Below, piece after piece: positions 42,927 through 45,235 of a stretch of 64,000 bases of DNA (position 1 is the stretch's first letter; every line of letters starts with the position of its first letter). Made by a program: the position numbers and the translations under genes. Below the pieces are notes generated by a model. That model was not told the DNA's origin. It did not search any database and was given only the letters and a program-made list of their open reading frames with translations. This DNA comes from Mycobacterium senriense (lineage in GTDB: Bacteria > Actinomycetota > Actinomycetes > Mycobacteriales > Mycobacteriaceae), in assembly GCF_019668465.1 (NCBI RefSeq), contig NZ_AP024828.1, positions 2,108,001 through 2,172,000 of the forward strand, given 5' to 3'.

Positions 42927-43628
42927 TTAACTTAGCCGGTTCGCGGTGGTCCGGCGCCGATCGGCGGTGACGGTTCTGCGGCCCCGCCGCGTCTGGGTGA
43001 CCGCGATTGCGGCAACGGTCATCGCCACGGCGACGGTCGCGGCGACGGCCACCCAGCGCCAGCCCAAGGCGCTGTCGAACAGCATCCACAACCCGAACGT
43101 CAGGAACAGCAGGCTGGCGGCGACGTGCAGCAGTTTTTCGGGCAGGCGCCGATGCAGCAGTCGTCCCGCAGCGATCGCCAAACCGTCGGCCAGCACCATG
43201 CCCAGTGTCGAGCCGATCCACACCCCCACCCAGTCGTGGTGGCTGGCCAACGTCACCGTCGCCAGGGCGGTCTTGTCGCTCATCTCGGCGAGCGCGAAAG
43301 ACGACACCACGGTGAGGAAGGCGAATCGCGGTTCGCGCGGCTGCGACACCGTCTCGTCGGTGGCCGCGCCCTCCCGCCAGGCCCACACCGCGAACGCGAG
43401 GAAGGCGAGGGCGGACGCGAAGGCCAGCGGCCGGGCCGGCAGGGCGGCGCCCAGGAAGTGCCCGATCGTCACGGAAACCCCATGCACCGTGAACGCGGCG
43501 AGCGCCACCCCGGTCAGCACCACCCACCACCGGTAGCGCAGGGCGTAGGTCATGGTGATCAGCTGGGATCGGTCACCGAGTTCGGCGACGAACACCACTC
43601 CCAGGGTCAACAGGGTGGCGGCGAGCAT
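42927..43628 (-). CDS. UPF0016/GDT1 family manganese exporter
   Basis: 233 residues from ATG 43628 with about six membrane helices. Both copies of the family motif E-x-G-D-K/R-S/T are present: VAELGDRSQ in helix 1 and LAEMSDKTA in the second half. Relatives (V. cholerae MneA, yeast Gdt1, human TMEM165) transport Mn2+ or Ca2+. A yybP-ykoY riboswitch lies directly upstream, which makes Mn2+ efflux the best call. The position corresponds to Rv3848. Confidence 0.9.
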   Translation of the reverse strand: MLAATLLTLGVVFVAELGDRSQLITMTYALRYRWWVVLTGVALAAFTVHGVSVTIGHFLGAALPARPLAFASALAFLAFAVWAWREGAATDETVSQPREPRFAFLTVVSSFALAEMSDKTALATVTLASHHDWVGVWIGSTLGMVLADGLAIAAGRLLHRRLPEKLLHVAASLLFLTFGLWMLFDSALGWRWVAVAATVAVAMTVAAIAVTQTRRGRRTVTADRRRTTANRLS

Positions 43629-43679
43629 GTCGGGTGACCTTTCGACGCGTCGTCGACGACCGCGGAAGTCGTCGAACTC

Positions 43680-43776
43680 CGGCCGAAGGTCTCGCCCACC
43701 GGGTGAACCGGTTCGCCGGCCGGGCTGTGCGCCAGTATGTCGACTCGACGATTGGGGGCTACTCCCCTTCGCTAAC
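43680..43776 (-). promoter_or_regulatory. yybP-ykoY manganese riboswitch
   Basis: On the minus strand the leader carries the conserved loop GGGGAGTAGC and, about 70 bases later, GGGCGAGACCTTCGG, with GACATACTG between. The outer P1 stem is CGAAGG with CCTTCG. These are the diagnostic Mn2+-binding loops of the family. Downstream, TTCGACG and CGTCGAA form a hairpin whose 3' arm abuts the AAGG ribosome-binding site, so control at translation initiation is likely: Mn2+ binding should free expression of the exporter. Confidence 0.85.
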
Positions 43777-43880
43777 GGTCCCAGATTAATGGGCCCATTC
43801 GGCGTCCGCCAGCGCGGCAACGGAGTTCGGTCGGCCGCATTTCTGGGATTTGAGACCCGAACTGCGTTAGGGCATTTCAG

Positions 43881-44414
43881 TTATGCGGCGAGCAGCATTG
43901 CCAATATTGCCGTATCGGGGTGGCTGATCGGGTCGACACCGACCCGGCTCACCATCGAGGTAATGGTGCCGTCGGCTTCCGCTTCCACCCACGCCGCGCG
44001 ATGCTCGAGTCCGAGATAGGGCAATCCGGGCAGCAACACGCATCCCGATGCCGCCCCGTTGCATTCCGGCAGTGACGGCGTGGTTTCCGAGGGCGGGTGC
44101 AACATGAGTAATGCCGGCGGCTGGTGCTCTGCGAAATAGCCCGGCTGAATGGCTGATTCACCGAAAACCGTGCCCTCGGCGAGCACCAGTCCCACCGTGC
44201 CCGGCTCAGGCTCGTCCGGTAATTCCTCGCGGGCTCCGAAGACCGTTGTGGTGGAGAGCAATCCGGGCAAGGACGCGATCCGGACCGCGACCATGAGCAG
44301 CTGGGCCCATTCTTTGGTCGAATCGGGCCACCGGCCGGAGATCACGAATCCTTTCAAGACACCACGTGAATGGAACGGGGAAACCCCGATTGGCCGATCC
44401 GCCCCTGTTTCCAT
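43881..44414 (-). CDS. conserved hypothetical protein (Rv3847 homologue)
   Basis: From ATG 44414 the product has exactly 177 residues, the length of Rv3847. It opens ETGADRPIGVSPFHSRG and has no signal peptide, membrane helix or recognised motif. The composition is moderately acidic with several Pro-rich turns. It lies between the manganese exporter and sodA on the same strand, as in H37Rv. Function unknown. Confidence 0.8.
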   Translation of the reverse strand: METGADRPIGVSPFHSRGVLKGFVISGRWPDSTKEWAQLLMVAVRIASLPGLLSTTTVFGAREELPDEPEPGTVGLVLAEGTVFGESAIQPGYFAEHQPPALLMLHPPSETTPSLPECNGAASGCVLLPGLPYLGLEHRAAWVEAEADGTITSMVSRVGVDPISHPDTAILAMLLAA

Positions 44415-44611: not shown

Positions 44612-45235
44612 TCAGCCGAAAATCAGACCCTGGGTTTTCGAGGTCGCGGCCGCGTACCGCTTCTGCACGTCCGCCCAGTTGACGACGTTCCAGAACGCCT
44701 TGACGTAATCAGCCTTGACGTTCTTGTACTGCAGGTAGAACGCGTGCTCCCACATATCCACCTGCAGCAAGGGGATGATGCCGAGTGGAACGTTGGCCTG
44801 CTGGTCGTACAGCTGGAAGGTCAGCAGTCGGTTGCCGAGGGTGTCATAGCCCAGCACCGCCCAGCCCGAGCCCTGCAGCCCGTTGGCGGCCGCGCTGAAT
44901 TGCGCGCGGAATCGGTCGAAGGATCCGAATGCGTCGTCGATCGCCGCGGCCAATTCGCCGGTCGGCTTGTCGCCGCCGTCCGGCGACAGGTTCTTCCACC
45001 AGATCGAGTGGTTGACGTGGCCGCCCAGGTGGAAGGCGAGGTTCTTTTCGTTCAAGAAGATTGCAGCGTGGTCCTCGTTGGCGCGGGCCTCTTCGAGTTT
45101 GGACAGAGCGTCGTTCACGCCTTTGACGTAGGTGGCGTGGTGCTTGGTGTGGTGGATCTCGTTGATCTGCCCCGAGATGTGCGGTTCCAACGCTGCGTAG
45201 TCCCAGTCCAAGTCGGGCAGGGTGTATTCAGCCAC
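44612..45235 (-). CDS. sodA: superoxide dismutase SodA (Fe/Mn family, manganese-type residue)
   Basis: 207 residues, the length of Rv3846. Converts superoxide to peroxide and oxygen; in mycobacteria it is abundant extracellularly despite lacking a signal peptide. Metal ligands His28, His76, Asp160 and His164 are all present. Position 145 is Gln ([10 protein letters not shown]), whereas M. tuberculosis iron SodA has His145; Gln is associated with manganese use. It lies about 1 kb from the manganese-riboswitch exporter gene. Confidence 0.97.

Follow-up and report, generated by a model that had tools for sequence, protein, structure and literature searches.

Upstream of the GDT1-type cation antiporter gene of Mycobacterium senriense there is most likely a yybP-ykoY-class Mn2+ riboswitch, which would switch on translation of this antiporter, a likely Mn2+ exporter; the ligand, the direction of the switch and the export activity are what we infer. 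The aptamer, the covariation of its helices, its homology to the mntP and alx riboswitches of E. coli and a pair of mutually exclusive pairings are results of computation on a 64,000-nucleotide stretch of contig NZ_AP024828.1 (positions 2,108,001 to 2,172,000; hereafter the window) and on its relatives. The class, its ligand and its link to UPF0016 genes are already known, and the element in the window is real, was correctly classed by a first-pass annotation, and is ordinary in kind. Its mechanism is corrected here, and its distribution turns out to be under-annotated. The features of the locus, numbered by position in the window, are as follows.

44612-45235, minus strand: Fe/Mn superoxide dismutase gene, two ORFs upstream of the riboswitch-GDT1 unit
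44537-43881, minus strand: ORF without Pfam match, upstream of the GDT1 leader
43783..43788, minus strand: -10-like box TAATCT, of the TANNNT form conserved upstream of family aptamers
43683..43772, minus strand: yybP-ykoY-type Mn2+ aptamer, a three-way junction without P2 (model R2 and 71-sequence alignment)
43766..43771, minus strand: P1.1 5' strand CGAAGG, pairing with 43689-43684 (99.8% of alignment cells paired over 6 pairs, with little variation)
43760..43765, minus strand: 5' side of L1, GGAGUA, with the 3' side GAGA at 43693-43690 (invariant in alignment A1)
43756..43759, minus strand: P1.2 5' strand GCCC, pairing with GGGC at 43697-43694 (paired in 100% of cells, with two of its four pairs invariable)
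43752..43755, minus strand: CCAA linker at the place expected for P2, from the junction spacing in family aptamers
43714..43750, minus strand: P3 arm, with P3.1 formed by 43750-43741 and 43722-43714 (A43745 bulged) and P3.2, GGC/GCC, by 43733-43731 and 43725-43723
A43738, minus strand: equivalent in L3 of the Mn-contacting adenosine, aligned to A48 of the Xanthomonas oryzae aptamer (PMC6754395)
43698..43712, minus strand: P4 hairpin ACCGG-UUCAC-CCGGU (93.2% of cells paired)
43684..43689, minus strand: P1.1 3' strand CCUUCG, the switch strand, common to the aptamer and the sequestering hairpin
43636..43691, minus strand: expression platform, a sequestering hairpin of GACCUUCGGC (43691-43682) with GUCGAAAGGUC (43646-43636, A43642 bulged) and a variable apical stem between them
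43638..43642, minus strand: Shine-Dalgarno (SD) site AAAGG, 9 nt before the ATG, called by duplex energy with the 16S tail
42927..43628, minus strand: GDT1/UPF0016 cation antiporter gene, 233 aa, Rv3848-like, ATG at 43628
42527-42114, minus strand: ORF with a sub-cut-off HTH_3 match, downstream of GDT1 and presumably resembling EspR

The first-pass annotation had placed an Rv3848-type UPF0016 exporter gene downstream of the riboswitch, and the 233-aa ORF indeed matches the Pfam profile PF01169 with E 9e-41 (138.5 bits) over two repeats; in a whole-genome profile search, this locus is the only place with PF01169 matches. Proteins of the UPF0016 family carry the motif E-x-G-D-(R/K)-(S/T) in each repeat (PMC7380456), which repeat 1 fits with AELGDRS, while repeat 2 reads AEMSDKT with S at the position of the motif's G; relatives such as the protein at locus L281 read AELGDKT at this second motif. 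The first 29 residues are matched at 100% by a locus of Mycobacterium sp. 852002-51971 (L177). A PDB sequence search returned one match, to an unrelated protein at E 0.74, and an NCBIfam search gave one weak match below cut-off and nothing else. That the riboswitch marks this protein as a likely Mn2+ exporter, as had also been proposed, is guilt by association, yet the link as such is in print: of 333 screened strains with a UPF0016 gene, 328 have it under a yybP-ykoY riboswitch (PMC7380456).

For comparison, we read 115 regions upstream of GDT1 genes, composed of 30 loci from the GDT1 search and 85 that were fetched, with four partial GDT1 matches left out (two of genome G081 and one each of G108 and G064); GDT1 matches had been found in 114 of the 151 genomes of the family. 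The three aptamer motifs lie in order upstream of GDT1 at 72 of these 115 loci, including all 10 genomes sampled from the window's own genus. One of the 72 aptamers is an exact duplicate, leaving 71 distinct sequences that form alignment A1. In addition, a pattern scan of named genomes produced at least 117 stretches, of which 80 loci were listed.

In the window, the aptamer reads GCGAAGGGGAGUAGCCCCCAAUCGUCGAGUCGACAUACUGGCGCACAGCCCGGCCGGCGAACCGGUUCACCCGGUGGGCGAGACCUUCGG from 43772 to 43683 on the minus strand. All three loops that the first-pass annotation had named are present in the order it gave, as GGGGAGTAGC (43767-43758), GACATACTG (43741-43733) and GGGCGAGACC (43697-43688), and the P1 stem that it had mentioned is CGAAGG/CCTTCG at 43771-43766/43689-43684. 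L1 with its A-minor adenosine, GGGGAGUAG, is invariant in the 71 distinct aptamers, which had been retrieved with a motif that tolerated two mismatches there. L3 contains UCGACA in 72/72 family aptamers and GUCGACA in 80/80 of the named loci listed, although the pattern permitted A. The Mn-contacting adenosine is kept in all 72 family aptamers (in the 80 named loci it was fixed by the search pattern and hence is uninformative there), and the two bases 3' of it vary, with UA in 55, CA in 14 and UG in 3 of the 72. The register of P3.1 and P3.2 in the window was set by hand.

Solved yybP-ykoY structures are four-way junctions of P1 to P4 (PMC6754395, PMC11087558), whereas the spacing from AGUAGC to GUCGACA amounts to 13-14 nt without any hairpin in all 72 family aptamers, so that P2 is missing. 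The same spacing is 13-15 nt in 79 of the 80 named loci listed, where the pattern had allowed 7-20 and the 80th was extracted incompletely. We rejected the idea that the absence of P2 represents a new architecture: it is a known variation, since the alx leader has no room for P2 and a streptococcal member, the mgtA riboswitch, was reported as a three-way junction.

Alignment A1 folds into P1.1, P1.2, P3.1, P3.2 and P4 under RNAalifold with ribosum scoring, while the default settings return only 19 pairs (P1.1, P1.2, outer P3.1 and two pairs of P4) with a small covariation term. Over 31 pairs, the share of paired cells is 92.8%, compared to 86.0% in shuffled alignments and at most 48.4% after sliding, and 162 cells carry double changes, where shuffles have 68.2 and slid versions no more than 55. 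Double changes affect 11 of the pairs, a number not above shuffles, 77 of 500 of which reach it. These double changes concern 6/11 pairs of P3.1, 4/5 pairs of P3.2 and 1/5 pairs of P4; L1 and most of P1 add no covariation because they are invariant.

At the gathering thresholds of Rfam 15, the window has no family match. A permissive scan of 501 bases listed RF00080 as the sole family out of 4227 at E<=10, with 11.4 bits and E 0.57 over all families, and this match holds L1 and L3 in register but misses the gathering cut-off of 45 bits. When RF00080 is searched against the whole genome, the same match ranks second of four with E 1.63. The first-pass annotation had counted the lack of a covariance-model hit as a refutation. 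Taken literally, this would apply at the Rfam cut-off, but the rule is unsound since two verified riboswitches fail as well: the E. coli mntP leader scores 41.6 bits with RF00080, also below the cut-off, and the alx leader is unlisted at E<=1. A missing Rfam hit thus says little about membership in the Mn2+ riboswitch class, and for the same reason we rejected the notion of a novel class that Rfam misses. Similarly, none of 18 named actinobacterial loci carrying the motif (out of the 80 listed) has an Rfam match at gathering thresholds.

We therefore rely on two covariance models of our own: R1 is based on A1, and R2 on 44 aptamers from other genera (A2), for which the 71 rows were reduced by the 10 of the window's genus and by 17 further rows removed by hand. 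On its own genome, the held-out model R2 finds 43772-43683 at 91.3 bits and E 6.2e-23, while the next of six matches listed has 16.9 bits and E 0.945; the 92.4 bits of R1 on the window are circular, given that it was built from A1. R1 also recovers alx (32.0 bits, E 1.5e-7) and mntP (28.6 bits, E 1.4e-6) from 12 kb in two 6-kb stretches, and R2 recovers them from 76 kb (alx 22.2 bits, E 3.2e-4; mntP 22.8 bits, E 2.1e-4). As both models contain actinobacterial leaders only, the RNA in the window is homologous to verified Mn2+ riboswitches, and the original assignment to the yybP-ykoY class stands. The other weak matches of RF00080, R1 and R2 in the M. senriense genome led nowhere; two of them (L240 and L241), read in part, show no core.

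With the E. coli mntP leader, the window shares L1 GGGGAGUAGCC, ACAUACU in L3, GGCGAGACC, the P1-P3-P4 arrangement and, by prediction for the window, an Mn exporter as target, but the mntP leader is longer by 14 nt where P2 would lie, controls MntP, and reads GUCAACA in L3 where the window has GUCGACA. The alx leader resembles the window in having no room for P2 and in its L1 GGGGAGUA, but differs in L3 (GUCAUUACG) and in its target, the annotated Mn2+ exporter Alx, which we take to be a member of the TerC family. Likewise, the Xanthomonas oryzae aptamer (PDB 6N2V) has L3 ACA48UACU and an L1 with A10 but forms a four-way junction with P2 and controls yebN transcriptionally (PMC6754395). Corynebacterium glutamicum has actinobacterial yybP-ykoY leaders (e.g., before cg2157 terC), one of which is a 5' UTR by RNA-seq (PMC3890552); the likeness is by description, and these leaders differ in having a TerC target and 43.7-49.9 bits with an older Rfam. 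The Streptococcus mgtA Mn2+ riboswitch, reported to share the three-way junction, differs in its P-type ATPase target.

The stretch that begins with the P1.1 3' strand and ends at the start codon is predicted to fold into a long hairpin. Its minimum-energy fold has -32.5 kcal/mol (z -2.94, with 2 of 200 shuffles as stable), while the fold of the whole leader is unremarkable (z -1.05, 33/200 equally stable). In this platform, the pairings GACCUU/AAGGUC and CGGC/GUCG flank a single bulged A, and the AAAGG ribosome site is therefore bound by the closing strand of the aptamer. The same pairing of the ribosome site CGAAAGGUC with the P1.1 3' strand GACCUUCG is found in 21/21 folded mycobacterial leaders of the window's type, which were picked by a TCGAAAGG-like ribosome-site motif out of 27 that were read, the other six having another platform. 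Each folded leader has its own apical stem; two A stay unpaired in L009 and in L132, and L132 retains the sequestering helix through changed pairs, CGGCAAC/GUUGCCG. The aptamer and the sequestering hairpin are thus mutually exclusive because they have GACCUUCG in common.

The first-pass annotation had described a hairpin of TTCGACG with CGTCGAA as the switch. Both words are present (43676-43670 and 43647-43641), and the latter does enter AAGG (43641-43638), but they are not paired with each other in the predicted fold, where TTCGACG sits mostly in the apical stem. What holds of this proposal is that the ribosome site is sequestered, yet by the P1.1 3' strand instead of TTCGACG, as in all 21 leaders; we consequently rejected the proposed hairpin. 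Capture by the P1.1 strand is the more convincing mechanism, since sequestration then stands in direct competition with aptamer formation.

In other genera, the complement of the switch strand lies further upstream; an example is ACCUUCGGCCG with GGGCCGGAGGA, after which comes CCUCCG ahead of a CGGAGG site. When the 71 leaders were searched downstream for a complement of the P1.1 3' strand, it reached p<=0.05 against shuffles in 42, with a mean z of -2.4, and covered at least four bases of the ribosome site in 25; for the window p is 0.129, and none of seven leaders of its type reaches 0.05. Equilibrium modelling gave higher access to the SD site with the aptamer formed in 51/71 leaders, the gain exceeding 0.2 in 14, whereas one leader lost more than 0.2; in this modelling, the site of L112 was plainly mis-called. 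For the window, modelled access is 0.36 with the aptamer and 0.13 without it.

Mn2+-ON translational control of GDT1 is therefore the most likely mode of action. Transcription would begin at about the first aptamer base, as suggested by the -10-like box, and the aptamer would form first in the transcript. At high Mn2+, by homology to solved structures, L1 and L3 would dock around the conserved adenosine and keep P1.1 shut, leaving GACCUUCG occupied and the ribosome site CGAAAGGUC free such that GDT1 would be translated. At low Mn2+, P1.1 would open and its 3' strand would pair with the ribosome site in the long hairpin, turning translation off.

In wider sets of genomes, R1 matches (E<=0.01) occur in 155/198 genomes of the genus and 55/396 of the phylum, and R2 matches in 94/197 genomes of the class, some of which may not precede GDT1. 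By contrast, RF00080 produced a match at E<=10 in 39 of 151 family genomes and none above cut-off, under stricter filters that lose the window match, so that the manganese model of Rfam 15 misses the GDT1 leaders. All 80 named loci listed are actinobacterial by title, and in 72 of them a GDT1 match (E<=1e-3) follows downstream. Among the remaining eight, L163 is GDT1 by Pfam, L122 and L159 have too little sequence, and five resemble sodium/calcium exchangers (L153, L155 and L173 by Pfam PF01699; L131 and L133 by eye). The P2-less aptamer thus stands before PF01699-family proteins in Nocardioides, Kibdelosporangium and Prauserella and, by eye, in Streptomyces, which makes these proteins candidate Mn2+ exporters. 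Related elements that carry GGGGAGTATTCC and GTCGTCATCACG-type loops also lie before TerC-like genes (L274-L277, L279, L280, L286 and L290, with L275, L279 and L286 Pfam-confirmed) and P-type-ATPase-like genes (L282-L285, L287 and L289, with L282 and L287 Pfam-confirmed) in Mycobacterium and other actinobacterial genomes. These TerC and ATPase targets belong to second or lower-scoring copies in related genomes. In the M. senriense genome, one TerC-family gene was found (L293), and the 600 bases that precede and surround its start contain no GGGGAGTA-like word.

It is unlikely that the same aptamer with the same ligand acts mainly on transcription, through a Rho site or through folding that affects RNA polymerase, with translation being secondary. 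The mycobacterial M-box offers a precedent, as it was reported to combine a translational platform with Rho-dependent termination (PMC12810186), and many leaders with a remote platform show no SD switching by equilibrium folding. However, a scan of 43400-44000 found no terminator-like site, on which ground we rejected an intrinsic terminator, and the switch strand pairs with the ribosome site itself in all 21 folded leaders. The conserved adenosine bears on another reading that we consider quite unlikely, namely that the fold is tuned to a different divalent ion (e.g., Cd2+, Co2+, Fe2+ or Ca2+) that is moved by the protein: this adenosine, the source of the Mn2+-specific N7 contact, is present in 72/72 aptamers, and related copies target P-type ATPases and TerC, the latter (as alx) being a known Mn target in E. 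coli. Such retuning could nevertheless be accommodated by an L3 that is one base off mntP beside the metal site and variable 3' of the adenosine, by PF01169 being named a divalent cation/proton antiporter instead of an Mn-specific one, and by the targets of the Na+/Ca2+-exchanger family.

That there is no riboswitch at all and the leader is conserved for protein binding or a small ORF appears highly improbable in view of the held-out E value of R2, the homology to mntP and alx, and the covariation of the helices. What speaks for it is the Rfam score under cut-off and a ribosome-protected small ORF of M. abscessus, reported to have homology to the gap between Rv3847 and Rv3848 (PMC4974804). This gap is where the equivalent riboswitch would lie. 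A Mn2+-responsive translational switch thus remains our preferred reading. Under it, the mycobacterial Rv3848-like GDT1 gene, situated near genes for superoxide dismutase and an EspR-like protein, would gain a concrete regulator and a likely substrate. Our search of the open-access literature, in which most subscription papers are absent, found no report of a Mn riboswitch at a mycobacterial GDT1 gene.

On a broader scale, it is possible, if somewhat short of probable, that Actinobacteria (Actinomycetota) possess a distinct P2-less subtype of the Mn2+ riboswitch that Rfam 15 misses, with a fixed junction of 13-15 nt and GUCGACA in L3. Lineage-specific translational platforms would act on its P1.1 3' strand, sister genera would have exchanged it for leaderless GDT1 mRNAs, and it would also stand before Na+/Ca2+-exchanger proteins, which, if true, would make these unrecognised Mn2+ exporters. 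What the present analysis adds to the known class is an unannotated breadth in Actinomycetota, the apparent exchange for leaderless mRNAs, and the Na+/Ca2+-exchanger targets.

The exchange is suggested by the position of promoter elements. A TANNNT box lies 7-11 nt upstream of the aptamer in 72/72 family loci compared to 5.2% of 716 control windows, and the RNA therefore probably starts at about the first aptamer base; a sigma-70 scan detected no promoter-like pair at the window's leader. Of the 43 loci without an aptamer (e.g., L023, L025 and L032), three had no start codon by the rule used. Among the other 40, TANNNT occurs within 20 nt before the start codon in 33 (32 of them at 6-7 nt), compared to 0/72 of the loci with aptamer. 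Judged from this spacing, aptamer-less GDT1 genes probably have leaderless mRNAs, and in our sample GDT1 thus tends towards either a riboswitch leader or no leader. This split for one and the same gene is a natural experiment on the gain and loss of metal control. Four loci (L030, L273, L278 and L291) seem to carry the aptamer in a decayed form. At L291 the GDT1 frame is broken as well, and L278 has no GDT1 frame among the two ORFs listed and an EspR-like ORF downstream.

During infection of Rhodococcus erythropolis by phage WC1, a UPF0016 gene shows the largest negative fold change at all times except the last, where it ranks second, and metal importers rise (PMC10986025). A fall in cellular Mn that is read by a GDT1 riboswitch could explain this drop.
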